DNA of 24,333 bases from a virus: positions 1 through 24,333 of IMG/VR virus record IMGVR_UViG_3300032240_000728; one strand, written 5' to 3'. The notes beneath the pieces were generated by a model that saw only the letters and a program-made list of their open reading frames with translations, did no database searches and was not told where the DNA came from. Shown piece by piece: positions 142 to 18,964 of the stretch (the first letter of the stretch is position 1; the number at the start of each line of letters is the position of its first letter). The position numbers were made by a program, and so were the translations under genes.

Positions 142-2640
142 TTACACTCCTAGGGTTCGTTGTGCGCTTTCCTGCGCGGCTAGTGCAGTCTGCTCCTGCT
201 CGTGCTGCAGAAGCTGCGCGTTGTGCGACAGCTCGGCAGACTTGATTCGTTCTTCGGTGAGATTGTCGTTCGCATCGAGTGCGATCTTGATCTGCTGCTC
301 CCGATTCTTGTTTAGCGCTTCGTTTGTGAGCTTTTGCTGTTGCAATTCCAGCTCTTTCGCGTCGCGCTCTGCCCGTCGTTTGGTCTCGGCCATGCTTGTC
401 TGCAGGATCACCTGATCCGAGCCGTCCATCGGTGGTTGCGGCTTCATCTTCTGCATCGTTTGCATGATCTGCTGCACTGCGGGCATCACCTTCTCGAATG
501 CGGATTTCGCATCCAAGTTCGTATGCTGCGACGCCAACGCGTAAAGCTTGTCGATCTCGCCCGTGATTCCCGCGATGTCGTAGTCCTTCACCGAACGACC
601 CAGCGACTCCTCGACGTAGCCATTCATGTGACCGAGGTACCAGAGCATCAAATGCTGCTTGAAGTGTTCGAGGAACGCGGGCATGAAGGTGGGCGCGATG
701 ATCGGGTTTGAACCGAACATGGGAGAGAGTGCGAAATCCAAGTGCGACTGCATGTGCGCCAGTTGGTTCTGGTGCGGGTACGCGTACGCCGCCCGACCGA
801 TCGCCATCGCCGCATTTTCCTCGGCCGCATTGATCTCCATCGGCTCGGCAGTGGCGGGCATTAGCTCCTGCACGTTCGGCACCTTCATCTGCTTCAGTGC
901 CCGCTGCACCACGGCACGGCGGTCGAACAGGTCCGGGTATTTGTCCATGTACGCCATGACCGCTTGGGTCTGCGCCATGCGCTGGGTCTCGGAGAAGATG
1001 TGCGGGTCGCTGACCGGAATCACGTCGGTGTTGCGATTGAAATCCTCGCGCCGAATGTCCAGCTCCTGCACCACGTCGCCCATCCGCATCTCGTCTAGAT
1101 ACCAGCGGTTGATGCGCTGCAATACCTTGAACACTCGGCTTTGCGAATCGTGCAATCGAGCGTGAATCGCCGAGAACACCTTGGAGCCCTGCTCGATCAG
1201 CGCTTGGGTTGTGCCAACTGGCGCGTTAGCGTTGATCTCCGCGATCTTCTCCTCGCTGGTGGTCACCACGCCTTTGGCCGCATCGGTCAGGAATCCGACC
1301 AGCTTGAACAGCACCTCGGACGGCGGGTTGAATGGCATCGGCATCGCGATCTTGCGGATGTCGTCTACGCCCGGTGCGCCCTCGATCTCGGTCACTTGCG
1401 TCACATCGACGTTCTGCGACTGCCCGGAGATCTTCGCCCCTTTGAGCTTGAGCATCGTCGCCGCGTTATTGATGTGCGCCGTATCCAGCAGTGCACGCAG
1501 ACCGCCGGTGATCGCCGCAGACAGCCCGCCAATCAGGTGCGGCAGTCCGATCGCGTAAGCACCGCGCCACGGAATGAATTTGAATTCGATGATGTGGTCC
1601 AGCTTCGTCATCGCCTCGTCGCCCTGCTCCCAGTTACGGTACAGGCCCACGACCTCGGTGCTGTCCTCGTCGATCATCAGGATGTAGGGAGCCAGCTCGC
1701 CTTTCGAGTGCGAATCATCCTCCTGCACGAGGAACGTGTAAATGTGGTACACGCGGCGCAGCCCATCCATATTGTCGGACCACTGCTTGCCCTCGATCTT
1801 GTTGTTCGCCTTTTCCGGTCCGCTTTCGGTTGGCTCCATGCTGGTGCGCACCACGTCGACGTCGCGGTACAGACCGGAGGCTACACGCGACTCGAATTCC
1901 TGCTGCGTGATGTCCTGCACCTCAGTGACACGCTGCGCGGTGTAAAAGCTGCCAGCGGCAAAGGGTAGCAGGATGTTGTCGATCGGTACGAATTCGGTGC
2001 AGGGACGGCGCTTGCGCTCGTCGTACCACATCTTGAGGAACTGCGAACCGCCCAGTGGCAGCTGCGTGAGCATTTGCTCCTGCTCGTCCCTGAATTCCTC
2101 GATCTGCTCGGTTAGCTGCCAATTCATGAAGTCGCGTTTGCGCTCCGCTCGCTTGGTCTCTTCCTCGTCCACATCGCCGATGATGTTCGTGCGGACCGGG
2201 CCGTCCGGCGGGAACAGCTCCTTGATCGCCCGCGATTCGAAATCGATACAGGCCTCGGCCATCACCGGGTGCACGACTTTGGACGCGCCCTGGAATTGTG
2301 CGCCGCCCGGAGCTTCATTGCCCAGCCCCGTGCGCTTGAGCCCCTCTTCGTACTGTTTATCGCGCTCTTTCCGTGCCTCTTTATCCTTCTCGATCAGGTC
2401 TAGGTACTTGAGCGCCAGCTTGTCCATGTCCCACGACATGATCTCGTCGGCCATGTTCGCGTAGAAATCCTGGTCCTCCGTTGGACCCTTGAATTCATCC
2501 ATGCGAACGATCGCCGAGCCATCGGGCTGTTCCTCCACCTCCGCAAACGGGTCATCCATGTCCAGATCGAACACCATGCCCTGCTCGTCCTCGGGACCAG
2601 CGGTCGGGTCTACTTGCGGTTGTGGAAATTCGGTGGCCAT
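142..2640 (-). CDS. Portal protein (head-tail connector)
   Basis: This 832-residue protein should form the ring at the capsid vertex through which the terminase pumps DNA and to which the tail attaches. It has the size and texture of the large portal family found in many siphoviruses and podoviruses. An acidic N-terminus is followed by a conserved region (about residues 125-245, including FESRAIKELFPPDGPV, then QLPLGGSQFLKMWYDE and FVPIDNILLPFAA). Later comes a helical region with a glycine-rich segment (GLPHLIGGLSAAITGGLRAL). The last 80 or so residues are a charged, Gln/Glu/Lys-rich helix likely to be a coiled coil. Position after small and large terminase supports the call. The ATG at 2640 follows AAAGGA. 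The family call is firm; I cannot place it in a particular subfamily. Confidence 0.85.
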   Translation of the reverse strand: MATEFPQPQVDPTAGPEDEQGMVFDLDMDDPFAEVEEQPDGSAIVRMDEFKGPTEDQDFYANMADEIMSWDMDKLALKYLDLIEKDKEARKERDKQYEEGLKRTGLGNEAPGGAQFQGASKVVHPVMAEACIDFESRAIKELFPPDGPVRTNIIGDVDEEETKRAERKRDFMNWQLTEQIEEFRDEQEQMLTQLPLGGSQFLKMWYDERKRRPCTEFVPIDNILLPFAAGSFYTAQRVTEVQDITQQEFESRVASGLYRDVDVVRTSMEPTESGPEKANNKIEGKQWSDNMDGLRRVYHIYTFLVQEDDSHSKGELAPYILMIDEDSTEVVGLYRNWEQGDEAMTKLDHIIEFKFIPWRGAYAIGLPHLIGGLSAAITGGLRALLDTAHINNAATMLKLKGAKISGQSQNVDVTQVTEIEGAPGVDDIRKIAMPMPFNPPSEVLFKLVGFLTDAAKGVVTTSEEKIAEINANAPVGTTQALIEQGSKVFSAIHARLHDSQSRVFKVLQRINRWYLDEMRMGDVVQELDIRREDFNRNTDVIPVSDPHIFSETQRMAQTQAVMAYMDKYPDLFDRRAVVQRALKQMKVPNVQELMPATAEPMEINAAEENAAMAIGRAAYAYPHQNQLAHMQSHLDFALSPMFGSNPIIAPTFMPAFLEHFKQHLMLWYLGHMNGYVEESLGRSVKDYDIAGITGEIDKLYALASQHTNLDAKSAFEKVMPAVQQIMQTMQKMKPQPPMDGSDQVILQTSMAETKRRAERDAKELELQQQKLTNEALNKNREQQIKIALDANDNLTEERIKSAELSHNAQLLQHEQEQTALAAQESAQRTLGV

Positions 2641-2643
2641 CGT

Positions 2644-2688
2644 TTATTCCTTTGCAGTGTGCGATTGTAACACGGCGCTACCTATCAT
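2644..2688 (-). CDS. Possible 14-residue coupling ORF before the portal
   Basis: The 44-base gap between the unknown gene at 2685-3911 and the portal holds a minimal frame, MIGSAVLQSHTAKE. Its ATG overlaps the upstream TGA as ATGA, the junction type used throughout this genome. Its stop TAA lies just before the portal start, and the portal ribosome binding site falls within its last codons. It could carry ribosomes to the portal start rather than make a functional peptide. It may equally be chance. Confidence 0.2.
   Translation of the reverse strand: MIGSAVLQSHTAKE
2664..2669 (-). promoter_or_regulatory. Possible extended -10 promoter for the portal gene
   Basis: On the minus strand GCCGTGTTACAATCG gives a TACAAT hexamer (5 of 6 matches to consensus) preceded by TGT, an extended -10. 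The bases CCGTGTTA also occur just upstream of the clear promoter at 11389-11417. No convincing -35 hexamer is seen 16-18 bases upstream, so this is weak. Confidence 0.25.
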
Positions 2689-3911
2689 TGGCGTCTCTCT
2701 ATAAGGTCGTAAATCGAAGGATCATTGCGCAGATAACGCGCCACCTCGTCCTCGTTTCGCAATAACCCACTGTGAAGCATACCTTCGACCGAATCCATCG
2801 CTGTGTCCTTCGAATACGCTTTGGCCGTATCATACACCTTAGGCGACGCTTGTTTCAGTGCGCGCATATATGGGCGCATCGCGAACAAAGGACTATCGGA
2901 TGGAGCACCAGTGAACATTTTCATATTTTCGGCAGGGCGGCTCATTTCAAACATGTCTATAACATCTTCATCTAGATTAACATTTTTGTAAGGATTCTTC
3001 AATACTTTATATGTGTCTATTATCTGATCAGAGTCATATCCCGGGAATTGCGACTTGGCAAGATCCACTGCTTCTTTTTTCTTAACACCCTGCCCGATCG
3101 CCCCCGCCAGTATCGATTCAAGAGTAACTGGTAGTGCAGCTGTAGCTTGCACGGGTTTGGCCACATCGGCGATTTTAGCAATTTCGCCCAAGATGTCCGG
3201 CGTTGGTAGTGCCTCGTTTAATCCTGGGATCGCGTGGCGCAGCACCTGACCGGCGGCGGTCTGCATGACGGCACGGCGCGACATCGGGGTTTCGACCAGC
3301 GATTGCAGCGTTGATTTCGCCGCACCTTGGCCAGGATCGATCGTTACCGATTTCTCAGTGATCGCTGGGGCCTTGGCCAGATCCTTTTGGATGTCGTCCA
3401 TCCGCGCCAGCGGCAGGTCGAGCTTGGGCTGCGCCTTGAGACCGAACAGCGAACGTCGTGCGAGATCGGGGGTATCGGCTGTCTTGACGCCCTTGCTCAT
3501 CAATTCCTGCGCCATCTCCGCTAGCGTCTTGCGCACGCTGCCGCCCTTTTGGTACGGACGCATCTCGTGCCGGGGTTGGGGCGCGTAGTCCGCACGGCGG
3601 GTGGCTAGTGCTGGCGGGTACTGCTCCTCCTGCGACATCCGGGCGGCGACCGCTCGGCGCAGTGCCTCGTCCGGGATCGCGGCCAGCCCCTGCTTCTTCT
3701 GCAGCGCCGCGTACTGTGCGTCGCGCTGCGCTTGGGACATCGCGTTATTTCGCGCCTCGAATGCCAGCTCCTGCGGGCCACTGGCGTCCTTGGAGTAGAG
3801 TGCGGCGTAGATCGGCACAGAGCCGCGCATGCCGCTGAATGCCGCTGCCACATTGGCCGGGTCTTCGGGCTTAAGCAGATTTACGAGGTCGTCCATCCAG
3901 TTACTGGGCAT
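2685..3911 (-). CDS. Conserved-looking phage protein of unknown function between terminase and portal
   Basis: This 408-residue protein is not recognised. The N-terminal third (about residues 1-115) is Ala/Gln/Arg-rich and predicted helical. Around residues 118-140 is the stretch YQKGGSVRKTLAEMAQEL. A KGG motif after an aromatic-basic pair also ends the 395-residue protein at 11676-12863. The C-terminal 130 residues have several short helices with Asp/Tyr-rich turns. The start codon at 3911 overlaps the end of the large terminase gene by 11 bases, so the two are probably translationally coupled. Position among packaging genes hints at a virion, scaffold or packaging role, but nothing in the sequence proves it. 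No signal peptide or membrane segment is visible. Confidence 0.6.
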   Translation of the reverse strand: MPSNWMDDLVNLLKPEDPANVAAAFSGMRGSVPIYAALYSKDASGPQELAFEARNNAMSQAQRDAQYAALQKKQGLAAIPDEALRRAVAARMSQEEQYPPALATRRADYAPQPRHEMRPYQKGGSVRKTLAEMAQELMSKGVKTADTPDLARRSLFGLKAQPKLDLPLARMDDIQKDLAKAPAITEKSVTIDPGQGAAKSTLQSLVETPMSRRAVMQTAAGQVLRHAIPGLNEALPTPDILGEIAKIADVAKPVQATAALPVTLESILAGAIGQGVKKKEAVDLAKSQFPGYDSDQIIDTYKVLKNPYKNVNLDEDVIDMFEMSRPAENMKMFTGAPSDSPLFAMRPYMRALKQASPKVYDTAKAYSKDTAMDSVEGMLHSGLLRNEDEVARYLRNDPSIYDLIERRQ

Positions 3912-5340
3912 AAGGGTTGCTCCTTTGTGTGCGGTACTCCTCGTCCACGTACTCCGTATCGGGTGCGACCGGGTCGATATCGAGGAAGCCCATGTCTTTC
4001 AATAATCGCAGTGCTTGCGACAGCGTGTCGGTCAGGTCGTCCCGCTCCGCGTCGGGGAAAGAGCAGACCTGCGAGACCAGCGGCTCGGCCCAGTCGCGTG
4101 GCTGGCCCCGGTGCACGAGCGATTCGGGGATGTAGACGCGCCCGTGGGCGATGATGTTGGCGACCAGATGCAAGCGCTGGGTCTTGTCGGCGCGTCCGGG
4201 GTTGTAGGCGCGGCACGGCACTCCGGCCCGCTGCAGGTCCTGCAGGATCGAAATGCCCGATGCCTTGTCCTCTACCAGCACGAGGTCTACCTTTTTGCCG
4301 GGGTCGCCGTAGATCGATTTGTACTCCTCGATGATCTTGGGTCGCAGGTCCGGGTAGGCGAGGTGGTCCTCCCAGCAGTCAATAAGCATGGCGCACAGCT
4401 TGGAGTCGTCGTTCGGGCGAAAGATGCCCCAAACGCTGCACGCGGTCGGGTCGTTGATCGTCTTGTCCGTGTACGCGCAGTCGTAGGACTGGAGCACGTA
4501 CATGAAGTCGGGCAATGGCTTGTGTGCGTCCCACAGCTTGAACCATGGGCGCTGCACGATGCCGTAGTCCTCGGGGTCGATCACCTCGGCGTACAGCTCC
4601 TGCCGTCCGATTCGCGTGCCCTCGTACTGCGAGACGATTTCGTCGCGAAACGTCGGGGCGAGGTTATTGAAATTCTCGTGCGTCGTGCCGGTCGTGACGA
4701 ATGTGCGCTCCTCCAAGATCAGGCGGCGCACGATGGGGATCGGCTTGGGCGTGGTGGTCACGCAGACGCGGGGCTTTTGCCCCAGTCGCAGTCCGAACAT
4801 CAGGTTGGACCACATATCCTCAGCGTTTCGGAATTTGGCAAGCTCGTCGACCCAGGCCAGATCGTGCTGAGGTCCGCGCAGCGTCTCGGGGTCGTTGTCC
4901 GAGTAGATCGTGGCGATCGCGCCATTGGGCCACTCAAGTCGACGTTTGGACGGGACGAATACCGGTTTGCATTTGGGGTGGGAGATCGCCAAAATCCCCG
5001 ATTCGCCCTCGACCATCACGTCGCGTGCGTCCCCGGCATCCTCAGCGATCAGCGCGATGCGACCGGCGAGCCCGTTCTCGGCGTGGTAGCGCACAAACTC
5101 CGCGCCGCACCGGGTTTTGCCCCATCCGCGTCCGGCCAGGATCATCCAAACGGTCCAGTCCACACCCGGCGGGATCATCTGGTTGGGCCTCGCCCATGTG
5201 CGCCAGTCGTAGAACAGCTCCAGCGCTTCGACGTCCGATAGCTCCGCGACGAACTCGGACCAATTGTCCGGGTCCAGCGGCGCGGGCCTGGAATTACTCC
5301 GCTTTGGACCGCGAGGTGAGACGCTGGGCAAGACGATCAC
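3901..5340 (-). CDS. terL: Terminase large subunit (packaging ATPase and nuclease)
   Basis: This 479-residue protein powers DNA packaging and cuts the concatemer. Walker A is AGRGWGKT (residues 69-76), Walker B with the catalytic Glu is LAWVDE (161-166), and the coupling motif is VCVTTTPKP (192-200). The C-terminal RNase H-like nuclease carries the expected acidic residues: Asp287 in SYDCAY, Glu357 in LVEDKASG and Asp434-Asp438 in RDDLTD. The chosen start is GTG at 5340, with GAGG seven bases upstream. This start lies inside the small terminase gene, giving a 47-base overlap. Length and motif order are normal for the family and nothing is missing. Confidence 0.95.
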   Translation of the reverse strand: MIVLPSVSPRGPKRSNSRPAPLDPDNWSEFVAELSDVEALELFYDWRTWARPNQMIPPGVDWTVWMILAGRGWGKTRCGAEFVRYHAENGLAGRIALIAEDAGDARDVMVEGESGILAISHPKCKPVFVPSKRRLEWPNGAIATIYSDNDPETLRGPQHDLAWVDELAKFRNAEDMWSNLMFGLRLGQKPRVCVTTTPKPIPIVRRLILEERTFVTTGTTHENFNNLAPTFRDEIVSQYEGTRIGRQELYAEVIDPEDYGIVQRPWFKLWDAHKPLPDFMYVLQSYDCAYTDKTINDPTACSVWGIFRPNDDSKLCAMLIDCWEDHLAYPDLRPKIIEEYKSIYGDPGKKVDLVLVEDKASGISILQDLQRAGVPCRAYNPGRADKTQRLHLVANIIAHGRVYIPESLVHRGQPRDWAEPLVSQVCSFPDAERDDLTDTLSQALRLLKDMGFLDIDPVAPDTEYVDEEYRTQRSNPYAQ

Positions 5341-7801: not shown

Positions 7802-8257
7802 TTAGGCGGTGGCGGCTTGGCGCAGCGAGCGGCGCAGCATATTGCCGAGGTTCATGCGCTGCATGCCGGGGTTGAGGTGGCCGAAGCGGTCCATCAGATC
7901 GGGAATCGATGTGCCGGTCGCGTTGGAGACGGTCGCGTAGACGGTGGTCAGGGTCAGGGGGCGCAGGGCTATGGCCACCGTGTCGCCCTTGTCGATCGAA
8001 CGCTTGGTCGTGCCCTCGGTCGTCAGCGCCTTGTAGGCCTCGTACTGGGGCAGGTACCCGGCGTAGACGACGCCGTTCTTGCGCTCCTCGATCAGGCGGG
8101 CGGTGGTGGGGGCGGTGATCGTGGTGTGGGCCGAGAGTGCCCCGTTGCGCACGTGGAGCGAATCGCCGCCGCCGATGTCGCGCACTGTGGTCCAGCCGCC
8201 TTTAACGCTAACGACTTCGACTTGGAGACCGGTCTTGGTGATGGTAGCTACTTTCAT
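7802..8257 (-). CDS. Hypothetical protein, 151 residues
   Basis: First gene of the module driven by the promoter at 8293-8321. The first 55 residues are beta-rich with alternating Val/Thr (MKVATITKTGLQVEVVSVKG), possibly a small barrel. The middle (RKNGVVYAGYLPQYEAYKAL) and the C-terminal basic helix (GHLNPGMQRMNLGNMLRRSL) look conserved, and I recall similar C-termini in other phage proteins without known function. GAGGAC precedes the ATG. No catalytic motif is evident. The basic C-terminus could bind nucleic acid. Confidence 0.6.
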   Translation of the reverse strand: MKVATITKTGLQVEVVSVKGGWTTVRDIGGGDSLHVRNGALSAHTTITAPTTARLIEERKNGVVYAGYLPQYEAYKALTTEGTTKRSIDKGDTVAIALRPLTLTTVYATVSNATGTSIPDLMDRFGHLNPGMQRMNLGNMLRRSLRQAATA

Positions 8258-8292
8258 GATTATGTCCTCTATTGGTTGGTTGAAAAGATTCT

Positions 8293-8321
8293 ATTATAGC
8301 ACGTGTGCAATAGGTCGTCAA
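8293..8321 (-). promoter_or_regulatory. Strong sigma70-type promoter P1
   Basis: TTGACG, 17-base spacer, TATAAT on the minus strand, with TG one base before the -10 (extended -10). The spacer holds CACACGTG next to the -10, matching CACNNGTG seen in sister promoters. The leader TTTTCAACCAACCAATAGAG follows. The -35 contains the TGA stop of the upstream 98-residue gene. Confidence 0.9.
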
Positions 8322-8614
8322 TTATTTCCTGCGACAAGCTCTGTCGCATTTGCGACACCGGAGGGGTCGAAGATCGTGGCGACGTACTCGGCCACGTTCT
8401 CGTCCCAGTGCGCGGCGGGCCAGTGGACCACGTACCCGTCCTCGTTCACCGACAGCCGGATTAGCGCTCCGGATTTGGGCAGGTCGTCCATGTTCGACCC
8501 CACGGGAATGAAAGTCGATACGCAGGGAGTGGCGGTCGCGCCGTACCACAGCACGGGGAGCCCCCGGTTGGCGATCGCGTCGATCAGGTCGGCGGTGGTG
8601 TTCAGTATCATCAT
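8318..8614 (-). CDS. Hypothetical protein, 98 residues
   Basis: Not recognised. It starts MMILNTTADLIDAIANRGLP, a short beta strand then a helix. It continues with a beta-rich middle (PVLWYGATATPCVSTFIPVG) and an acidic, Trp-containing end (GYVVHWPAAHWDENVAEYVA). It looks like a small folded alpha/beta protein. The first ATG overlaps the stop of the preceding gene as ATGA, and the second ATG follows directly. GAGG lies eight bases upstream. Its own stop codon sits inside the -35 hexamer of promoter P1. The longer open frame upstream is a shadow of the neighbour. Confidence 0.6.
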   Translation of the reverse strand: MMILNTTADLIDAIANRGLPVLWYGATATPCVSTFIPVGSNMDDLPKSGALIRLSVNEDGYVVHWPAAHWDENVAEYVATIFDPSGVANATELVAGNN

Positions 8615-8853
8615 GGGTAGGCCCTCATTTTCTTTAGCTCTTGCACATTTTTGCGGATTTCCATCTGCCGGTCCCGGATCGCGTCGATCTCGGCCCACAG
8701 CTTGACGATGTACGGGTCGGTGTACGGCACGTCCGAGCGCGCTTGCAGGGCCGAGTAGCAATCGGCCATGGCGCAGACGCATTCGTAGGCTCCGGCGTTC
8801 GCGAATTTCTCGCGGAACGCGTCGCACATTTCTCGGTACGACTGCGCCAGCAT
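8611..8853 (-). CDS. Small hypothetical protein, 80 residues, helical
   Basis: Not recognised. Predicted all-helical, with three Cys in the first half (YECVCAMADCYSALQ) and a charged C-terminal helix (IDAIRDRQMEIRKNVQELKK) that could be a short coiled coil. The Cys spacing does not form a recognisable zinc site. It starts at the TAATG junction with the preceding gene and is the middle gene of the three-gene module behind P2. Confidence 0.6.
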   Translation of the reverse strand: MLAQSYREMCDAFREKFANAGAYECVCAMADCYSALQARSDVPYTDPYIVKLWAEIDAIRDRQMEIRKNVQELKKMRAYP

Positions 8854-9119
8854 TATACGCCCTCCACGGAGCCGACCAATTCGCCGTCCATCACATCGAA
8901 CAGCACGGATTTCGCGATGTTCAGCGTTTGGCGTGCGCGCTCCACGTCGCCGTGCGCCATTAGCTCTTGCGCGTCGGACATCAATCCGGCGATGACCATA
9001 TTAGCGCCGGAGACCTTGTAGGTCGGGTAATCCCGCATCTGTGCTTTCCATCCGTCGATGTCGGCGATGCCGTACATGCGCATATTGCGGTCGATCCATT
9101 CGGTGGTTAGTGTGGTCAT
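8853..9119 (-). CDS. Hypothetical protein, 88 residues, helical
   Basis: First gene of the module behind promoter P2. It begins MTTLTTEWIDRNMRMYGIAD and is mostly helical, with the segment MVIAGLMSDAQELMAHGDVE resembling a helix-turn-helix repeat (helical hairpin) rather than a DNA-binding fold. GAGGAC precedes the ATG at normal spacing. I do not recognise a family. Size and position suggest an early accessory protein. Confidence 0.6.
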   Translation of the reverse strand: MTTLTTEWIDRNMRMYGIADIDGWKAQMRDYPTYKVSGANMVIAGLMSDAQELMAHGDVERARQTLNIAKSVLFDVMDGELVGSVEGV

Positions 9120-9152: not shown

Positions 9153-9181
9153 ATTATAACACCAGTGCTACAGGCTGTCAA
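9153..9181 (-). promoter_or_regulatory. Strong sigma70-type promoter P2
   Basis: TTGACA, 17-base spacer, TATAAT with extended TGT before the -10: consensus in both hexamers. The spacer ends GCACTGGTGT, matching the CACNNGTG pattern. The leader CTTTTAACCACCGATAGAGG follows. The promoter lies across the end of the 242-residue gene, whose TAG is in the spacer. Confidence 0.92.
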
Positions 9182-11417: not shown

Positions 11418-11695
11418 TCCCCCCTGCGTCCGATTCGGTCCGCGACGATTTGCGCATACCCAGCGATATCGACCCACGAATCGAGATGGTTCGGGTCGCC
11501 GTTCATGATGCGCGAAATCTTGTGCAGGATCATTTCCATCGATTCGCGCTGGTGCGGCTCCATCCGCTCCCAATTGGGCAGTGCGCGCAGGTAGGACTTC
11601 AAATCCTGAGCGATGACGCCCTGCACGGTAAAATCCCCGTAGGACGCACCCCGCTCGGTGATAATGACCTTGAGGTCAGGCTTCGACTGCGACAT
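11414..11695 (-). CDS. DUF6378-like protein, possible all-alpha NTP pyrophosphohydrolase relative
   Basis: This 93-residue protein shows the layout I associate with the phage DUF6378 family: RGASYGDFTVQG (residues 15-26), the helix MEMILHKISRIMNGDP (54-68) and DSWVDIAGYAQIVADRI (72-88). The paired acidic helices recall the MazG-type fold, in which Glu and Asp bind magnesium. Its small size and lack of a clear EExxE motif leave activity unproven. It is the third gene after promoter P4, overlapping the 395-residue gene by 20 bases. If active it would be a second nucleotide-pool enzyme beside MazZ. Confidence 0.6.
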   Translation of the reverse strand: MSQSKPDLKVIITERGASYGDFTVQGVIAQDLKSYLRALPNWERMEPHQRESMEMILHKISRIMNGDPNHLDSWVDIAGYAQIVADRIGRRGD

Positions 11696-12863
11696 GCGCC
11701 AGTCCCCCCTTCTTGTACCGGCCCTTCAGCGCCTCGTCCGCGCCGGGGTAGCTCAGCAGGTCTTGCACGATCTCCTCGGTCGTCTTGCCCTCCTGCAATC
11801 CCCGCAGCAACGCCTCGGTCGTTCCCGATCGCCCGACGATGCCGGTGCCGAATCCGGACCGAATGTCCCGGCTTCCCTTATCCGATGCCAGCGAGCCCCG
11901 AGTGCGAGCCACGTACTCTTTGAGCTTGTCCAAATCCATCGGGTGCGCCGCATCCATCAGCTCGTGCTCGCCGGGTATCGCACCGAGGTAGCCGTAGTCC
12001 GGCACCGTGTTGGCCTTGATCGCTTGCATCTCTTTCAGCGCCAGCAGCCCCGTTTTCGCCTCGTCGTTGTACCGGCTCGCGGCCATCGCGTCCAGATTCT
12101 TGGCCGTGTCGAGCGGGTGGCCCGAAAGCGAAGATTCGAGTGCGCGATCGGACGCGTCGGCGCTGCTGCCGGTGATGATGGGGTCGTAGGGGTTGAGGTC
12201 GTAGTGGCGGCCTTCGAACAGCGGCACATGCTTGTAATCCCCATGCGCTAAGCCGTGCGACATCACGTTGCCGGGGCGACGCATTTGGTTCACACCGGTC
12301 AAAATGTCGAGGTAGTTCATGTCCCCACCAGCCCGAATCGCATCGAGAACCGCCGCGTACCCGGTACGTCCCAGTCCGGCGGGCATTTGCATCGTGTCGA
12401 GGTTGAACGCCATCGGGGGATTGCCGTTCACTTGCGGTAGCCGGTTCAACTGCGCAAGCTGCGAGGGATCGTCCACATTCTTCGCCTCTTTGCCCTTCAT
12501 GTAGATGCGCCCCTCTTCGTCTCCGGTGCGCTTATTGGTGAACGTCATCACCCCTTGCTCGGGCAATTCACCCCGCGATAGTCGGCGAATGTTCTCGATT
12601 TGGCGCGACGGATTGCCCACCGGCAACAGCTTGTAGGTCAACGGGTCCCCGCTGCTGCCCACAAATCGGCCCTCGCGTTGCATTCGAGTGAGCACCTCGA
12701 TCGGCGTCTCGCCCGGTCGTATAGCGCGCTCGGCGCTCGAAATCGCTTGCGCTCCGGGTCGCTGGGCCAGCAGCGCGTGGCCGCGCCCAACGCCCTCCAT
12801 CAGATCATGAAAGCTCAGGCTCGCGGGATTGGGCTTGAACGTGTTTGGCTTTGGCATTGGCAT
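11676..12863 (-). CDS. Unknown 395-residue protein following the HDAC-like gene
   Basis: Not recognised. A low-complexity start (MPMPKPNTFKPNPASLSFHD) is followed by a helical region and a beta-rich part (MTFTNKRTGDEEGRIYMKGK). A Gly/Asp/Tyr-rich core has many conserved-looking turns (MNYLDILTGVNQMRRPGNVM, then HGLAHGDYKHVPLFEGRHYD). The C-terminus ends RYKKGGLAHVAVEA. A similar KGG motif occurs in the 408-residue protein beside the terminase, so a virion-associated role is possible. The ATG has an excellent ribosome binding site (GAGGT) that lies inside the HDAC-like gene, giving a 59-base overlap and pointing to coupled expression with that enzyme. Confidence 0.55.
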   Translation of the reverse strand: MPMPKPNTFKPNPASLSFHDLMEGVGRGHALLAQRPGAQAISSAERAIRPGETPIEVLTRMQREGRFVGSSGDPLTYKLLPVGNPSRQIENIRRLSRGELPEQGVMTFTNKRTGDEEGRIYMKGKEAKNVDDPSQLAQLNRLPQVNGNPPMAFNLDTMQMPAGLGRTGYAAVLDAIRAGGDMNYLDILTGVNQMRRPGNVMSHGLAHGDYKHVPLFEGRHYDLNPYDPIITGSSADASDRALESSLSGHPLDTAKNLDAMAASRYNDEAKTGLLALKEMQAIKANTVPDYGYLGAIPGEHELMDAAHPMDLDKLKEYVARTRGSLASDKGSRDIRSGFGTGIVGRSGTTEALLRGLQEGKTTEEIVQDLLSYPGADEALKGRYKKGGLAHVAVEA

Positions 12864-13692
12864 GTAGCACCTCGTCGGATTGTTGCAGTGTCATCAGATG
12901 GATGTCGATGGTGCGCTGCATCGGATCGGCGTACCCACCGGCCAGATTCCAGACGAGCGGAACGCCCGCATTGGTGGCGGCGAGGAATATCCCCCGATCA
13001 CGGCGTGCGAGTCCCATTAGCGACAGGTATCCGGCCCCATAGGGGTCGTCCTCCCAAGCGTCGGCTCCGGCCTGATACATAATTATACCCGGCTTGTGGC
13101 GCGAAATCAAGTCCCACGTCCAGTCGTACCACTCCTTGGTGCCGAATCCCGACTGCTCGTCACCCATCGTGCCCGCAGTATTGCCCCGCGTTACGTGCCG
13201 CACCTGCGCCCCCATCCCGTAGTGATCGATGATCGCCTGAGTCCCATTGCCGTAGTGCCCGTCGCCGTCGATGATAAGTACGCACCCAGCACCGGCACGC
13301 AGCGCGCGCTTGGCCGAGATCATCAGCCCGTTGAACGTGCAGTAGCCCCCACCATCGTTCCACGTGGCGTGGTGGAATCCCTGCGTCGCCGAGCACGAGA
13401 TGCCGCCGTTCTCCAGAGCGTGCCGGGTCGCGGCCCAGTGGCCAGCGGTCGTGTAGCGCAGCGCCTCGTTCACGTCGATGTCGCGATTGCCGAATCCGTT
13501 ATTGCGCTTGCGGAACATGACGTCGCGCACGTAGCCCAGATCGTGGACGGCGGCGATCTCCGAATTGTTGAAGGGTCGAAAATCCGACCGCACGTGTCGG
13601 TCGGACTGCGCGACGAATTCGGGGATCTTGTTCACCGAGATGAACGAGAATCCGACATCCTGCGCGGGGTGGTAGTAGATGGGTGTATGCAT
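12805..13692 (-). CDS. Histone-deacetylase-fold zinc amidohydrolase
   Basis: This 295-residue protein carries the full active site of the arginase/deacetylase superfamily in the right order. The His-His pair is in GFHHAT (His107, His108), followed by GGGYCTFNGL. Zinc ligands are Asp144 and His146 in IDGDGHYGNGTQ and Asp211 in QAGADAWEDDPYG, and the transition-state Tyr is in AGGY (Tyr254). Bacterial members remove acetyl groups from polyamines, lysines or small molecules. The N-terminus (MHTPIYYHPAQD) also fits bacterial members. It is the first gene after promoter P4 and is coupled to a protein of unknown function. No signal peptide, so it should act in the cytoplasm. The substrate cannot be read from the sequence. 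Confidence 0.88.
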   Translation of the reverse strand: MHTPIYYHPAQDVGFSFISVNKIPEFVAQSDRHVRSDFRPFNNSEIAAVHDLGYVRDVMFRKRNNGFGNRDIDVNEALRYTTAGHWAATRHALENGGISCSATQGFHHATWNDGGGYCTFNGLMISAKRALRAGAGCVLIIDGDGHYGNGTQAIIDHYGMGAQVRHVTRGNTAGTMGDEQSGFGTKEWYDWTWDLISRHKPGIIMYQAGADAWEDDPYGAGYLSLMGLARRDRGIFLAATNAGVPLVWNLAGGYADPMQRTIDIHLMTLQQSDEVLHANAKAKHVQAQSREPELS

Positions 13693-13700
13693 GCTATATA

Positions 13701-13961
13701 TTAGTCCTCTATGGTTGCTTTGGTGGGGGACGGATTATACCACGCGTGGGACAGTCTGTCAACCCCCGCACGCCGCCGATCGGCCCGGTTCGGGGCCTTC
13801 TTCTCGCGCTCGGCTCGCTCCAAGTCGCCCGAGTCCGGGGACTCGCGAGTGGTGAATCGAAAGTCGCAGTGCAAGCAGATCCGGCGACGCCGGGTCACTC
13901 CATTGGCGTTTTGGTATGTAGTGGACACCGAGGTGCCCTCGCCGCATTTGATACAGTTCAC
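13701..13961 (-). CDS. NrdR-like zinc-ribbon protein without ATP-cone
   Basis: From GTG at 13961, which overlaps the DatZ stop as GTGA, comes an 86-residue protein. Its first 40 residues match the zinc ribbon of NrdR, the repressor of ribonucleotide reductase genes: MNCIKCG (Cys3, Cys6), then GVTRRRRICLHCDFRFTTRE (Cys29, Cys32). NrdR's nucleotide-sensing ATP-cone is absent; a charged tail (DLERAEREKKAPNRADRRRA) replaces it. The last codons run through promoter P4 of the next module. It could bind NrdR-box-like DNA or interfere with host NrdR. A frame open further upstream is a shadow of DatZ. Confidence 0.7.
   Translation of the reverse strand: MNCIKCGEGTSVSTTYQNANGVTRRRRICLHCDFRFTTRESPDSGDLERAEREKKAPNRADRRRAGVDRLSHAWYNPSPTKATIED
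13734..13762 (-). promoter_or_regulatory. Strong sigma70-type promoter P4 of the HDAC-like module
   Basis: TTGACA, 17-base spacer, TATAAT, with extended TGG. The spacer ends with the perfect palindrome CCACGCGTGG directly before the -10, the best example of the CACNNGTG element. The promoter lies within the last codons of the zinc-ribbon gene. The leader shares ATAGAGGAC with the other modules. Confidence 0.92.
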
Positions 13962-14521
13962 ATCCACCCCCCATCGATTCCGATCTCGCGCAGCACGGCA
14001 CGCACGCCGGGACGAATTTCCAGATTCGGGTACTCGACCTCGTAGTGGTCCACCATCCGGCCCAGGATACCCCGCATGCCGTCCAGCACCTCGCGGGCAT
14101 GAGCCCCGACCCCATTGTCCTGCAGGAAGTAGATCGCCTCGATCTGGTCCGCGAGCTTGACGATCATCTCCACCTCGGTCCCTTTGATCTTGCGGTACGC
14201 CCCGCCCATCTCGCGATCCATCGCGTCCTCGGCCCGCTCCACGACCCCGCCCCCGGCCACCTGCTCCAGCGCCCTCTTGAATGGCGGCGGGATGTCGCCC
14301 GTGCGTACCTCGATGATGTCGTGCGATAGCGCCCATTGCAGCAGTCGCAGCTGATTCGAGTCGTGCAGCAGTCCCGGCCAGCGAATGCGAGCCGCGACCG
14401 ATCCGGCAATCACCGCCACACCGAACGAATGCTCCGCCAGCGTCTGCTCCCTCGACGTCTGCACGATGTGCCAGCGGCGCACGTGGCACGCCCTCAATTG
14501 TTCACAAATAGTTAAGCTCAT
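13958..14521 (-). CDS. datZ: HD-domain dATP triphosphohydrolase, DatZ-like
   Basis: This 187-residue HD phosphohydrolase resembles YfbR and phage DatZ. The start (RRWHIVQTSREQTLAEHSFG) gives Arg15 or Arg16 and the first metal His31. HDIIEVRTGDIP supplies the His67-Asp68 pair, Glu71 and Asp76, and VKLADQIEA supplies Asp125. DatZ of phage S-2L removes the triphosphate from dATP and so clears it from the pool in phages that use base Z. The same operon encodes PurZ, MazZ and a PolA polymerase, which makes DatZ much more likely than a general 5'-nucleotidase. It overlaps the preceding gene as ATGA. Length is normal. dATP specificity is inferred from context. Confidence 0.85.
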   Translation of the reverse strand: MSLTICEQLRACHVRRWHIVQTSREQTLAEHSFGVAVIAGSVAARIRWPGLLHDSNQLRLLQWALSHDIIEVRTGDIPPPFKRALEQVAGGGVVERAEDAMDREMGGAYRKIKGTEVEMIVKLADQIEAIYFLQDNGVGAHAREVLDGMRGILGRMVDHYEVEYPNLEIRPGVRAVLREIGIDGGWM

Positions 14522-14712
14522 ACGTTTTTCTCCTTAAGTTTATCTTCAATGCGTTTGTAAATGTGCCAAGGCAAATATTGGTCAGGCGTAATCTTAAAAC
14601 ACTCTGCAATTTCATCTTCCGTCAGCCCCACCCAAGGGCGCTGATACACCTGCGTATCGTCATCTTCCAGCTTGTCCCGCGCTGCTGCGCGTTTGCTTTC
14701 GTAGCCTGTCAT
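14518..14712 (-). CDS. Small conserved phage protein, 64 residues
   Basis: It begins MTGYESKRAAARDKLEDDDT. Small phage proteins with a YESKRAAA-DKL start are common, with no known function. The C-terminus has an acidic helix-rich segment (LTEDEIAECFKITPDQY) and a basic end (KRIEDKLKEKNV). The ATG at 14712 overlaps the preceding stop as ATGA; a longer frame to 14766 would run into the membrane protein gene. It directly precedes datZ. Confidence 0.65.
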   Translation of the reverse strand: MTGYESKRAAARDKLEDDDTQVYQRPWVGLTEDEIAECFKITPDQYLPWHIYKRIEDKLKEKNV

Positions 14713-14882
14713 TTCAGCACCACCGCTGCGACAATCATTCCCAGTGCCGCCATCACGATAATCCACGCGATGAGACCCTTGATCTGCTGCAAGAATTGCG
14801 CATAATCGCTGGTCTCGGGTTCGTCGAATTCCCAGTCCCGCTGCGTCTTGCGCTCGATATATGCTTTGTCCGCTTCATTCAT
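14709..14882 (-). CDS. Predicted 57-residue single-pass membrane protein
   Basis: A charged N-terminal half (MNEADKAYIERKTQRDWEFD) is followed by one hydrophobic helix, residues 37-56 (GLIAWIIVMAALGMIVAAVV), ending in Lys. Both junctions are ATGA overlaps, with the 80-residue gene before and the 64-residue gene after, so this is almost certainly a real member of the operon. It is probably an inner-membrane protein with its charged domain in the cytoplasm. It could be a small accessory or holin-like protein, but a single helix inside a replication operon does not show this. Confidence 0.7.
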   Translation of the reverse strand: MNEADKAYIERKTQRDWEFDEPETSDYAQFLQQIKGLIAWIIVMAALGMIVAAVVLK

Positions 14883-15121
14883 TGCGCCCGCTCCTTGAGC
14901 ATTGCGTCTGCCGTTTTGTACGCGGCTTCTGCCATAATGTCGAAAATGTCCGCATCTTCATGGTAGTGTTTGGCGTCCGATGCGAATAGCCCTTGCATAG
15001 CCAACCCAGCAAAGTGATCGCGCAGTGTCATGTCCTTTGCGTAGCCTCCGGTCTTGACCATCCAGTCGGTGTAGTCTTTTGCATACGCTGCACTAATTTC
15101 TTGTCTTGTTTCATATTTCAT
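14879..15121 (-). CDS. Small conserved phage protein, 80 residues
   Basis: The sequence MTLRDHFAGLAMQGLFASDA (about residues 31-50) followed by IFDIMAEAAYKTADAMLKER is a pattern seen in many phage proteins of unknown function (LRDYFA-A-AMQG-L, then AY--ADAML). The N-terminus is charged and helical. ATGA overlaps on both sides tie it to the operon. It may be a small regulatory or DNA-metabolism accessory; nothing in it shows catalysis. Confidence 0.7.
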   Translation of the reverse strand: MKYETRQEISAAYAKDYTDWMVKTGGYAKDMTLRDHFAGLAMQGLFASDAKHYHEDADIFDIMAEAAYKTADAMLKERAQ

Positions 15122-15336
15122 TGAGCCCGCTCCTCATTCTTGTAGGTCTTCAGATGCGCGTTCAGCCGTGTGATCCTCGTCGTGTTGTAGTCCACGATCG
15201 ATTGCGCATAATCCACCGCCGTCTCGGCTTCGAGCTTCTCCAGATGCGCTTGTGCCAGCTCCCGGCTGATCACCTCCAGTGGCGTTGGCTCGCGCAGTCG
15301 CTCCTTGAGCATGTCGAATAGTCCCGGCTTTTTCAT
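15118..15336 (-). CDS. Small conserved phage protein, 72 residues
   Basis: It contains PTPLEVISRELAQAHLEKLE (residues 17-36) and YAQSIVDYNTTRITRLNAHL (43-62). Proteins with this PTPLEVI-EL helix followed by a YA--VVDYN--RI-RL helix are common in phages and uncharacterised. It is predicted to be a two-helix coiled-coil hairpin. The ATGA overlap with the preceding gene supports the start. Confidence 0.7.
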   Translation of the reverse strand: MKKPGLFDMLKERLREPTPLEVISRELAQAHLEKLEAETAVDYAQSIVDYNTTRITRLNAHLKTYKNEERAQ

Positions 15337-15548
15337 GATTTCACCGCCTGTAGTCTCCGCACCTGATCCGCGATTTGATCGCCCGTGTACTCTTCGAACA
15401 GCACGAATTCGTACTGCTTGGCCACGTGCTCCAGCACTGCGTTCCAGATCCGCTTGATATTCTCCCGATTCTCGTCGTCCTCCGCGCCCAGCACGTTGCC
15501 GAACATCTGGTTGTAGAATTCGTCGAAAGCTTGATTACGTTTTGACAT
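15333..15548 (-). CDS. Small hypothetical protein, 71 residues
   Basis: Not recognised. It is acidic and helical: QAFDEFYNQMFGNVLGAEDD, then ENIKRIWNAVLEHVAKQYEF, ending in a short basic helix. Its start lies 14 bases inside the end of mazZ, and its stop overlaps the next start as ATGA. There are no metal-binding or catalytic motifs. Its place directly after mazZ could mean a partner of the nucleotide enzymes, but this is only position. Confidence 0.6.
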   Translation of the reverse strand: MSKRNQAFDEFYNQMFGNVLGAEDDENRENIKRIWNAVLEHVAKQYEFVLFEEYTGDQIADQVRRLQAVKS

Positions 15549-16035
15549 GGCGCATTATCCTTGTATGTTCGTCGACCTGCCACTCCCTTGCCTCGTTGAT
15601 CTCCATCTTCGCTTCGATCGCCGCGTGTACGTCGATGCCGTTCACATGGGCCACGTCCAGCAGCAGGATCATGACGTCGCCCAATTCGAGTGCCGATTTG
15701 GGGTCCCTAGCGTACTCACCCACTTCCTCGTAGAGCTTGAGTAGAATATCCGCCGTCGTTCGCTGCGGAAAGTTAGAGTCAGCCCACCGCGTGATCCGAT
15801 CTTGTAGTTGCCGAATGTCGGCACCCCCACGCTTCTTGTAGGCATTGACTGCACGAACAGCAAGCGCTGCATTCTTGCCGCAGTTAGCCAGTACTCCTCG
15901 ATAGTGGTGACGGACCTCGAAAGACGCGATGGTAGCGCCTTGCGCGTCGATAATCTGTGAATCGTCAATCGGCGAGACTTCCCAGGGTAGCTCGTTGACT
16001 TCATCAGTGTGCGCTTGTGATTCGACCTGTAGCAT
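15535..16035 (-). CDS. mazZ: MazG-like nucleotide pyrophosphohydrolase, MazZ
   Basis: The C-terminal half has the MazG core: LLKLYEEVGEYARDP with Glu103, Glu104 and Glu107, then LELGDVMILLLD with Glu117 and Asp120 to bind magnesium. MazZ of Z-genome phages hydrolyses dGTP to dGMP, the substrate of PurZ. The N-terminal 65 residues (NELPWEVSPIDDSQIIDAQG, then a LAVRAVNAY helix) match a short domain often found alone in other phage proteins, so this looks like a fusion. The ribosome binding site (GGAGAG) lies inside purZ, which overlaps by 32 bases. GTP-type specificity is inferred from this overlap, not from a diagnostic residue. Confidence 0.85.
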   Translation of the reverse strand: MLQVESQAHTDEVNELPWEVSPIDDSQIIDAQGATIASFEVRHHYRGVLANCGKNAALAVRAVNAYKKRGGADIRQLQDRITRWADSNFPQRTTADILLKLYEEVGEYARDPKSALELGDVMILLLDVAHVNGIDVHAAIEAKMEINEAREWQVDEHTRIMRHVKT

Positions 16036-17119
16036 GTGCTCTCCAATAGTTAATAATCTCTGCCCGATTTCGTACTTCGAACACGTCGCGATAGGACGGC
16101 CCGAATCCGACCCACCGAATATGCGACCGCGCCGCGTAAATGCCCTCCAGAATGCCGACCAGCTCGCTCTCGGTGCGGCAGTAATTGGCGAAGTTGAGGA
16201 ATACTAGATTCGCCCCATTGTAATCGATCGCCTCAGCGATCTGCTTGCGGCTGAATGTGAAAATGCGCCTCGGCAGCTTGGTCACCGTCGTCAGCTCGGT
16301 CTGCTGGCTCAGCTCCTCGAACGAGATCTCCAGCTGGTCGTCGTAGCACGGCCCCGAGTACCCGACCTGCGTCCCCTCGGTGTCGAACCGATTGGCCACT
16401 CGGATAGGATAGGTGCGACAAGTGCCAATGACCCGGATCTCCGAGATGCCTTGACGGTGCTCGTCCACCATAAGATGCGGAATCGCACAATCGGCGAGGA
16501 TCTGCCAGACGCTCACATCACGCGAGGTGGTGTAGGGGTAGAACCCGTGGTACATCGACAGCCCGTAGCCCTGCGCACCTTCGATCAGTACGTTCTTGGC
16601 CGACATTAACTTCATGCGGTAGTGCGCGGTAGAGCATACGTAGGCATCCAGCTCCGGGCAACTGGCCGCGATATTGAGGTCGTCCGGGTTGCGTCGGATT
16701 CGCTGGATCATCGCCGCGCCCACGCCCTTCTTGGTGGACCCGATCTTCGTCATCGGCCCCGCTTCCTCTTCGATGTGCCGGTCGGTCACGATCGCCGCGT
16801 GCGGGTGGATCAAAATCTCCGCTTCGCCGATCAGGTCTTTGCACGCCTCGATTTCCATCAGCAGCTGCGCCGGGTTGATCGCCGAGCCGGGTCCAAGCAT
16901 GACACGAGCGAGCCGGGGCGATACGATGCCATTGCCCAGATGCGTGTGGATGAATTTACGCCTATCCAGCCGGTCACTCGCTATATACGTGTGCCCCGCG
17001 TTCGGTGCCCACGCCGTCACGATTGTGTCCGGCTCTTCGTCCTCCGCGATCTTACCCACGATCAGCCCCTTGCCGGTGCTGCCGTATTGCAGATCCACTA
17101 CCATTGTGATTTTTGCCAT
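16004..17119 (-). CDS. purZ: PurZ, 2-aminodeoxyadenylosuccinate synthetase
   Basis: This 371-residue PurA homologue should join aspartate to dGMP, the first committed step to base Z. PurA signatures are present: the P-loop region YGSTGKG (12-18), NAGHT with His43, KIGSTKKGVGAA (125-136), EGAQG (180-184), YPYTTSRDVS, and RTYPIRVAN (235-243). The key difference is Ser14, where PurA has its catalytic Asp in WGDEGKGK. Loss of this Asp is reported in characterised PurZ and fits use of the 2-amino group of dGMP. The ribosome binding site (AGAGGA) shares bases with the stop of the polymerase gene. A host-type PurA is unlikely given the residue and neighbours. Confidence 0.93.
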   Translation of the reverse strand: MAKITMVVDLQYGSTGKGLIVGKIAEDEEPDTIVTAWAPNAGHTYIASDRLDRRKFIHTHLGNGIVSPRLARVMLGPGSAINPAQLLMEIEACKDLIGEAEILIHPHAAIVTDRHIEEEAGPMTKIGSTKKGVGAAMIQRIRRNPDDLNIAASCPELDAYVCSTAHYRMKLMSAKNVLIEGAQGYGLSMYHGFYPYTTSRDVSVWQILADCAIPHLMVDEHRQGISEIRVIGTCRTYPIRVANRFDTEGTQVGYSGPCYDDQLEISFEELSQQTELTTVTKLPRRIFTFSRKQIAEAIDYNGANLVFLNFANYCRTESELVGILEGIYAARSHIRWVGFGPSYRDVFEVRNRAEIINYWRAHATGRITSAH

Positions 17120-17128
17120 TTTGATCCT

Positions 17129-18964
17129 CTATCCTTTCGCTGCGTACCAGTCCTCACCCACGCCCCAGTCGCACGTGATCGGCACGCGCAGCTTGATGGG
17201 ACATTCTACACCGTCGAAGGTCGTGTAGATTCGAGCCACCTCTGTCGCCTTATGCGACGAATCATCATCGAGCGAGATCCCCACCTCGTCGTGCACCGTA
17301 AGAAGCAGCCGCCCGCATTCCTCGGCACGTAGGTATTTGTGCAGCTCGATTAGCTTTTGCTTCATGCAGTCCGCGCTGGTCGCTTGGTAGATCAGCCCCG
17401 ACGCCTTATGCACGAATTGGCCACCCGGGAATCGCAGTCGCCGCCCCATGACCGAATGCACCGAGCCACGCTCCTTGGCGATATTACTCGCCTTCTGCGC
17501 TGTGTTGCGCATTCCAGGATTCGCGGCGTGGTATTTCTCGAACATCGCCATCGCCTCGGGGCCCGCCTTGAGGAAGACGTTGCCATTCGGCCCCTCCTCC
17601 TCCGTGTACGGGAGCCCGCACTCCTGCGCCAGCCGCCCCGAGCCCATGTTGAATGCGAGCCCGAGATTAATAGCCTTGGAAGACGGCCCACCCGCATACT
17701 GCGCATTGCGGGGGATGCCGGTCAGGTCCGAGACGAGCTGGTGGAAGTCGAGGTTCGGATTCTCGGCATACGCTTGAAGAATAGCGGGTACCTGACCGTA
17801 ATGGTTAGCAACACGAAATTCGAACTGGCTCCAGTCCAGACCCAGCCAACTGGCCCCAAAGTCTGGCTTGAATATCGGGCGCACCAGCGATTTAATATGT
17901 TGATCTCGGGACGGGATCTGCTGTAGAGCCGGATTAGTAATCGACAGTCGCCCGGTTCCGGTCCCAGCCTCAGCATCGTTTTTAGTCTGGTTGTAATTGC
18001 AGTGAATAACGCCATCGTGTTGGTGTCCTAGTATGTGTCCCTTAAGGAACGTGTCCCGCGTTTTGAGCGCCTTGCGCAAATCCAGTATCATCGTCGCCGC
18101 CGGGTGCTTCATCCGACGCAGACAGTCCGCATTGATCGACGCCTTTCCCCCATCGGTCTTGTCGGCTTTGGTGCCATCGATCAGGTACCACTCATTGTCC
18201 TCGCCGAGCCGGGGCTTAAACAAATCCGTGATCGATCCGGAGGGGTTCGGGTTGACCTCGAAGCCCGCCAAGGTATTCAGATCCCGCTGCAGCTGGTCGA
18301 CGCGAACGGTGAGCCCACGGATGGCCCGCTCGGCCTGTTCCACGTCCACCCGCACTCCCTGCTCTTCCATGTCCATGATCACCGGCATAAGATCGCGCTC
18401 CAGCCGGTGCACTTGGTGCAGATTCTGCCGCTCGATCTCCGGCGTCTGCCAGTTGTACAGCGCCAGCGTCACTACCGCGTCTTGGATCGCGTACTTGGAC
18501 ACGAGCGAATGGGGGGCCTTCGATATGTTGGGCATCTGCGCATTCCTAGTCGGACGCCCGCCGAAGATCTTCGCCATTTCCTCGTAGATCTCCTCGTCCT
18601 TCTTCATCCCGCAGTATTTGCGAGCGAGGAAGTCCAGCGTGTAGACCGGCTCGTGCTCCGAGATCAGCGCAGCGCGGGTCATCGTGCAGTCGATCCGGTC
18701 CAGCGGAATCACCACCCCAGCCTCGCGCAGGAAGTGCAAGTCGAATTTAAGATTATGCCCGACCCACAGGTCCACCCGGCGCTCTTCGATTAGGTCTCCG
18801 AGCCACTGGATGATACCGGGGTTGGTGCGCACGTCCCAATAGGCCGAGAAGTCGGGCAGAGCGATGGAGATGCCAAATAGGCGATCCTCCCACCACTTCA
18901 AGCCCGTCGTCTCGGTGTCGATCACCACCACTGGGGCATGATCGATGCGTGGGAAAATGGCCAT
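17129..18964 (-). CDS. dpoZ: PolA-family DNA polymerase with proofreading, DpoZ type
   Basis: This 611-residue family A polymerase has the 3'-5' exonuclease motifs DTETTGL (Asp16, Glu18), HNLKFDL (Asp75) and YAIQDAVV (Asp162). Polymerase motif A is GLDWSQFEFR (Asp377), motif B SSKAINLGLAFNMG (Lys430) and motif C TVHDEVG (His558-Asp559-Glu560). There is no 5' nuclease domain, and length matches phage DpoZ. In motif B the residues matching E. coli Pol I Phe762 and Tyr766 are Leu434 and Phe438. DpoZ of phiVC8 prefers Z over A mainly through its exonuclease. The gene starts at a TGATG junction with the SSB-like gene. Polymerase identity is certain; the Z preference is inferred from the neighbours. 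Confidence 0.92.
   Translation of the reverse strand: MAIFPRIDHAPVVVIDTETTGLKWWEDRLFGISIALPDFSAYWDVRTNPGIIQWLGDLIEERRVDLWVGHNLKFDLHFLREAGVVIPLDRIDCTMTRAALISEHEPVYTLDFLARKYCGMKKDEEIYEEMAKIFGGRPTRNAQMPNISKAPHSLVSKYAIQDAVVTLALYNWQTPEIERQNLHQVHRLERDLMPVIMDMEEQGVRVDVEQAERAIRGLTVRVDQLQRDLNTLAGFEVNPNPSGSITDLFKPRLGEDNEWYLIDGTKADKTDGGKASINADCLRRMKHPAATMILDLRKALKTRDTFLKGHILGHQHDGVIHCNYNQTKNDAEAGTGTGRLSITNPALQQIPSRDQHIKSLVRPIFKPDFGASWLGLDWSQFEFRVANHYGQVPAILQAYAENPNLDFHQLVSDLTGIPRNAQYAGGPSSKAINLGLAFNMGSGRLAQECGLPYTEEEGPNGNVFLKAGPEAMAMFEKYHAANPGMRNTAQKASNIAKERGSVHSVMGRRLRFPGGQFVHKASGLIYQATSADCMKQKLIELHKYLRAEECGRLLLTVHDEVGISLDDDSSHKATEVARIYTTFDGVECPIKLRVPITCDWGVGEDWYAAKG

Follow-up and report, generated by a model that had tools for sequence, protein, structure and literature searches.

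Does the virus represented by IMG/VR record IMGVR_UViG_3300032240_000728 (positions 1–24,333; 24,333 nt, here called the window) build its DNA with 2-aminoadenine (Z) in place of adenine? The question is raised by the genes for DpoZ, PurZ, MazZ and DatZ, which an earlier note on this DNA had described as the complete set for a base-Z genome, and which are indeed found at the place claimed, in one same-strand run on the minus strand. This run is read here, with a probability of about 0.93, as an operon serving replication and the nucleotide pool in a tailed phage that replaces adenine by Z; very probably, the phage synthesises dZTP, breaks dATP down and assembles Z-substituted DNA. Gene presence and order, family membership, active-site conservation and co-inheritance were all observed directly. 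Relatives were taken from one viral scan (IMG/VR), which yielded 70 PurZ loci with about 37–72% identical PurZ, and co-occurrence counts were restricted to the 42 loci with enough flanking sequence. The elements that carry the argument are:

20748–19300, minus strand: UvrD-like helicase, upstream of the SSB gene
19296–19268, minus strand: sigma-70-type promoter "P5" (TTGACG-N17-TATAAT with TG before the -10 element, 11/12 consensus), preceding the operon
19233–18964, minus strand: SSB-like single-strand DNA-binding protein (phrog_7364, E-value 1.2e-15), adjoining dpoZ in most relatives
18964–17129, minus strand: DpoZ, family-A DNA polymerase with 3'-5' exonuclease, of the aminoadenine-incorporating type (NF038380, motif residues, tree)
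17119–16004, minus strand: PurZ, predicted succino-amino-deoxyadenylate synthase (dGMP + Asp to dSMP; NF038379, S14, tree)
16035–15535, minus strand: MazZ-1 type, predicted dGTP diphosphohydrolase with an N-terminal extension of ~70 residues (PF04447, 7ody, acidic residues, model)
14521–13958, minus strand: DatZ, predicted HD-domain dATP triphosphohydrolase (phrog_7076, 6zpa, residues, tree)

Since all genes of interest lie on the minus strand, transcription runs from high to low coordinates, in the order UvrD-like helicase, SSB, DpoZ, PurZ, MazZ, five small genes (s1–s5), DatZ, a zinc-ribbon open reading frame (ORF) and a histone-deacetylase-like gene. From SSB to DatZ (19233–13958, minus strand), the genes form a single chain in which neighbours overlap or almost abut; the junctions overlap, mostly by 4 bases (ATGA type), except that DpoZ and PurZ are 9 bases apart, and an AGGA/GGAG Shine-Dalgarno-like motif is present upstream of several of the starts. 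The promoter P5 and the SSB-like protein were likewise recovered as described in the earlier note. The SSB ORF opens at TTG 19296, but its likely start was placed at ATG 19233 because of the promoter position and the leader, which puts the gene just beyond the range previously assigned to the set (13958–18964). A P5-type promoter (at least 10/12) precedes SSB in 38 of 51 relatives, compared to 5.6% of random 210-base windows.

By analogy with characterised homologues, MazZ would convert dGTP to dGMP, which PurZ would join to aspartate, with ATP or dATP, to yield dSMP, and host PurB and kinases would then complete dZTP. DatZ would degrade dATP to dA, leaving little A to compete, and DpoZ would copy with Z placed opposite T, aided by SSB and the upstream UvrD-like helicase. 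The same homologues lead us to expect these enzyme activities and host-supplied steps, as well as virion DNA that contains Z and resists restriction enzymes.

PurZ scores 333.7 bits against the curated NCBI PurZ model NF038379 (cut-off 300) and 94 bits against the purA model (cut-off 396), matches phrog_1211 (E-value 7.7e-81), which PHROGs labels "2-aminooxy adenylosuccinate synthetase", and has S-2L PurZ (7odx, E-value 5e-78) as its best solved relative by sequence. For all four enzymes, functional residues for alignment were taken from published work (PMC8342488, PMC8065100, PMC8599892). In PurZ, S14 (within YGSTGKG) aligns to S-2L S23 and occupies the position of the catalytic Asp13 of PurA, a replacement that serves as a PurZ criterion (PMC12884076). 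The T277–T280 tip, V241 and nearly all base, ribose and aspartate-loop residues are kept in the alignment; substitutions comprise T197 for S-2L C204 and N312 for S-2L Q308, the latter as in phiVC8. In a tree of 34 rows (IQ-TREE), the protein of the window branches within the phage PurZ group, a 29-row fork (99/95) that also includes two sequences from proteobacterial metagenome-assembled genomes, whereas E. coli PurA and the PurZ0 phages lie outside on long branches, the exact position of E. coli PurA being uncertain. GenBank phages reach at most about 48% identity to the PurZ of the window.

Two side observations concern PurZ. Its identity to the sister phages L052 and L017 is 71–73%, compared to 91–92% for DpoZ and 89–91% for MazZ. 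Whole-gene replacement was suspected on these grounds and rejected: the PurZ tree still unites the window with L052 (99/92), which makes faster divergence or partial mosaicism the likelier cause. Moreover, PurZ-like genes with 35–36% identity are present in two contigs assigned to proteobacterial metagenome-assembled genomes (L081 and L082, each at 8001–8993), where they group with Ochrobactrum phage OH and locus L070; these contigs are possibly prophages or misbinned phages.

DatZ matches phrog_7076 ("dATP triphosphohydrolase", E-value 5e-27), with S-2L DatZ (6zpa, E-value 2e-16) as its best solved relative by sequence. All 13 functional residues of S-2L DatZ (PMC8065100), including metal ligands, phosphate contacts and base/sugar readers, are identical, among them R16, W17, I19, H31, H67/D68, P80, K82, K122 and D125; W17, I19 and P80 are the counterparts of S-2L W20, I22 and P79, which read sugar and base. 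In the DatZ tree, the window is nested with S-2L, other Z phages and uncultured relatives (90/89), apart from three non-Z phage HD enzymes, with E. coli YfbR placed in an unresolved fork among some DatZ proteins. Grouping with host PurA or YfbR, set beforehand as the refuting outcome, was not seen. DpoZ scores 790.7 bits against NF038380 (phage_DpoZ_1; cut-off 500) and 213 bits against the Pol I model, carries the HD dyad and the exonuclease residues D16 and E18, and falls among Z-phage polymerases in the tree. Judged by the published criteria for phiVC8-like DpoZ, which cover motif B, motif 6 and insertions (PMC8599892), its L434, F438 and G523 match the phiVC8 motif-B residues L455 and F459 and the motif-6 residue G548, and the three phiVC8-type palm/finger insertion regions are present in the alignment, with variable length.

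MazZ, encoded between purZ and datZ, matches PF04447 ("dATP-dGTP_PPHyd") with 36.2 bits (cut-off 23). Its best solved relative by sequence is S-2L MazZ (7ody, E-value 2.6e-13), which is also the best Foldseek match (E-value 1.4e-6, TMt 0.88; MazG-HisE fold) of a structural model with a mean pLDDT of 88. The catalytic residues E104, E107, E117 and D120 are kept, as is D127, equivalent to S-2L D60, which contacts the guanine 2-amino group. MazZ proteins of this clade start with an extension of ~70 residues with the conserved core DAxGA..FEVRH..RGVL.NC.KNA..AVRAVNAY, in which Pfam did not find DUF5664, the domain fused in SH-Ab 15497 MazZ. Because N-terminal fusions are already known for MazZ-1 (PMC8342488), the extension represents a variation on a known theme.

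The set is co-inherited. Among the 42 well-flanked metagenomic relatives, DpoZ and DatZ are each present in 42, MazZ in 40, UvrD in 36 and SSB in 35; s1 occurs in 30 of them, the deacetylase-like gene occurs in 29, and 33 keep the order SSB-DpoZ-PurZ-MazZ-DatZ. A complete set is therefore the rule, and the earlier note's remark that such a set, interleaved with five small unknown genes, is less common is not supported. The cultured phages SH-Ab 15497, PMBT28, K21lambda1, Bm1 and BUCT555 carry the same Z set, and published surveys describe datZ, mazZ and purZ as a co-varying Z-cluster (PMC8342488) and PurZ phages as mostly having DatZ plus MazZ-2 or DUF550 (PMC12884076). The proposal that these genes make up the whole set for a Z-substituted genome is thus strongly supported by the curated models, the trees, the residues of the active sites and the gene order, and the operon is apparently intact and functional.

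Do the remaining genes of the operon belong to the pathway as well? Downstream of mazZ lie:

15548–15333, minus strand: s1, 71 aa, predicted to be all-helical, clade-conserved directly 3' of mazZ
15336–15118, minus strand: s2, small ORF, variable cargo, with matches in 6 searched loci, in the same place only in L052
15121–14879, minus strand: s3, small ORF, variable cargo, phrog_2201-like (E-value 2e-13), with matches in 5 searched loci
14882–14709, minus strand: s4, 57 aa, hydrophobic C-terminus (from the ORF sequence)
14712–14518, minus strand: s5, small ORF, variable cargo, opening at GTG 14766, likely start ATG 14712
13961–13701, minus strand: small NrdR-like zinc-ribbon ORF (CxxC...CxxC; weak TIGR00244 match, E-value 0.0022)
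12805–13692, minus strand: histone-deacetylase/acetylpolyamine-amidohydrolase-like gene (PF00850, E-value 1.8e-26)

The five small ORFs between mazZ and datZ, found as described earlier, had been proposed as extra parts of the pathway. That they are additional working parts is unlikely, even though their translation is coupled to that of mazZ and datZ and s1 follows mazZ in 30 of the 42 well-flanked relatives. Among the five, only s1 is a conserved neighbour, in one clade, where it directly follows mazZ; it was found in 48 searched loci. Its model consists of three helices (pLDDT 76), and it had no Pfam, PHROG or GenBank-phage match, cultured Z phages included, nor a usable match in the structure search. 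The others vary or are absent beside intact Z genes: s3 matches in relatives lie mostly elsewhere in the genome, s4 has no relative in any searched locus, and s5 has weak paralogues in several mazZ-datZ intervals and elsewhere in relatives' genomes. The gap between s1 (or mazZ) and datZ ranges from 0 to about 2.2 kb across the 70 loci and measures 0–12 bases in many. A role of s2–s5 as pathway parts was rejected, given their rarity and the empty interval in many relatives with complete Z sets. As pathway-essential genes would not be so rare or mobile, s2–s5 are best read as exchangeable cargo and the s1-datZ interval as an accessory-gene hotspot. The NrdR-like zinc-ribbon ORF, coupled to datZ via a GTGA overlap and matched in 23 searched loci, is outside the known Z pathway.

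The second alternative, judged very improbable, is that the genes are intact and A is replaced only partly or conditionally, owing to leaky pool enzymes or a leaky polymerase in this lineage. It draws on MazZ, in which F89 occupies the position of S-2L N20, a guanine O6 contact, and on S-2L, whose PrimPol does not tell A and Z apart, so that this phage depends on DatZ (PMC8065100). Full replacement is favoured by the retention of all DatZ specificity residues and the DpoZ clade features and by co-inheritance of the set. Several points nevertheless weigh against the reading as a Z-DNA operon. F89, at a position that varies in other Z phages too, means that the preference of MazZ for dGTP is presumed from its homologues. 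A close DpoZ homologue occurs in phage phiJL001, which has no Z genes (PMC8599892), so that the polymerase alone proves nothing. Several deep forks are unresolved in the DatZ and DpoZ trees, and the record is probably a fragment of the phage genome. The last alternative, host-type housekeeping enzymes (PurA, YfbR, MazG, Pol I) carried as auxiliary metabolic genes beside normal DNA, takes up the Pfam names Adenylsucc_synt, YfbR-like and DNA_pol_A and has a negligible probability, as the Z-specific models are far ahead (PurZ 334 versus 94 bits for purA; DpoZ 791 versus 213 bits for Pol I), the phage PurZ groups do not include E. coli PurA and Ser replaces the catalytic Asp13.

The portal and terminase genes (142–5340, minus strand) are nearest to those of Caulobacter phages and of a Manatee Spring siphovirus (MW202545), and a search of the latter and of Caulobacter phage RW gave no PurZ. 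This pattern suggests that the host is alphaproteobacterial and that the replication module has been swapped. DNA similarity to GenBank phages was limited to a stretch of 2% of the window, in the portal gene. Two contigs of 55.8 and 57.5 kb (G034, G035) have a portal 64–66% identical to that of the window, and their records, possibly incomplete, gave no PurZ match and no family-A polymerase. Published evidence indicates that the Z module moves horizontally between phage lineages (PMC12884076), and the occurrence of the same portal gene with and without it fits such movement.

The sigma-70 promoters of the window, all on the minus strand and with an extended -10 element, include three perfect ones (TTGACA-N16-18-TATAAT) at 9181, 11417 and 13762 and two 11/12 matches at 8321 and 19296; they have the leader ACCAACCRATAGAGGACA in common. 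Relatives that bear purZ and this portal gene have up to 12 perfect promoters each, whereas no perfect promoter was counted in five contigs lacking a PurZ match or in three Z-less phages having the portal gene. Contig G028 (35.6 kb) has three perfect promoters and no PurZ; judging by its 81% identical portal, it may be a piece of a Z phage. As a general mark of Z phages, hyper-consensus promoters are not supported: of 43 sampled viral contigs that have them, 41 lack a PurZ match, and several Z phages have none. They are kept as a lead at the level of the lineage. One rather unlikely idea is that, Z:T pairs being harder to melt, the phages of this clade may have adapted by using perfect promoters with an extended -10 element and, separately, that s1 could act as an undescribed MazZ/DatZ accessory protein; because perfect promoters are common in other phages, the link to Z:T melting is put forward as a hypothesis.

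The deacetylase-like gene has its own perfect promoter (13762–13734, minus strand, 12/12), and a promoter of at least 10/12 precedes it in all 47 relatives having the gene. Its best PDB matches are named histone deacetylase, weaker ones being acetylpolyamine amidohydrolases, and GenBank phages contain only distant matches (24–34%). Proven acetylpolyamine amidohydrolases are known from giant viruses of eukaryotes (PMC9992855). Adjoining this gene is a 395-aa protein without family (11676–12863, minus strand), which is 75% identical in L052 and only 26–31% identical in most other relatives, at the same place. Within the window, no tRNA or Rfam family was found, and PADLOC reported only helicase-domain cross-matches to an SNF2 protein and one marginal match for s4.

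The Z system itself is already known; the window adds an uncultured lineage of probable Z-genome phages that is well represented in IMG/VR, many of the 70 loci being near relatives (contigs of 53–59 kb), with its nearest GenBank relatives less than 50% identical in PurZ. It also offers a clean contrast between carriers and non-carriers of the Z module among phages that share a portal gene, and it sorts the neighbours into a core (DpoZ, PurZ, MazZ, DatZ and usually SSB), clade-specific genes (s1, the deacetylase-like gene) and cargo (s2–s5).

Of the known systems, the phages SH-Ab 15497 (Acinetobacter), PMBT28 (Salmonella) and K21lambda1 (Klebsiella) have, like the window, a one-strand block of helicase, family-A DpoZ, SSB, PurZ, DUF550-type MazZ and DatZ, with PurZ ~45–48% identical. 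Their SSB follows the polymerase, whereas it precedes DpoZ in the window; a large N-terminal part is fused to their MazZ (it is DUF5664 in SH-Ab 15497, PMC12884076), unlike the different extension of ~70 residues seen here, and they lack s1 and the small-gene insert. Cyanophage S-2L has purZ, mazZ and datZ in the same order as the window and most functional residues in common, but possesses PrimPol and no DpoZ (PMC8065100), and its MazZ has no N-terminal extension and is directly followed by datZ, in place of the extension and intervening small genes of the window. The Vibrio phage phiVC8 (Enhodamvirus) shares the DpoZ motif changes and insertions and the purZ/datZ order, but has a MazZ-2 variant, an extra large gene between dpoZ and purZ and a podovirus genome, with PurZ 42% identical. 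The PurZ0 phages (Arthrobacter Aledel, Streptomyces Keanu, Gordonia Sapo), finally, also use a PurZ-family enzyme for dZTP, but form the separate PurZ0 branch and have DutZ/DmtZ in place of DatZ/MazZ (PMC12884076).

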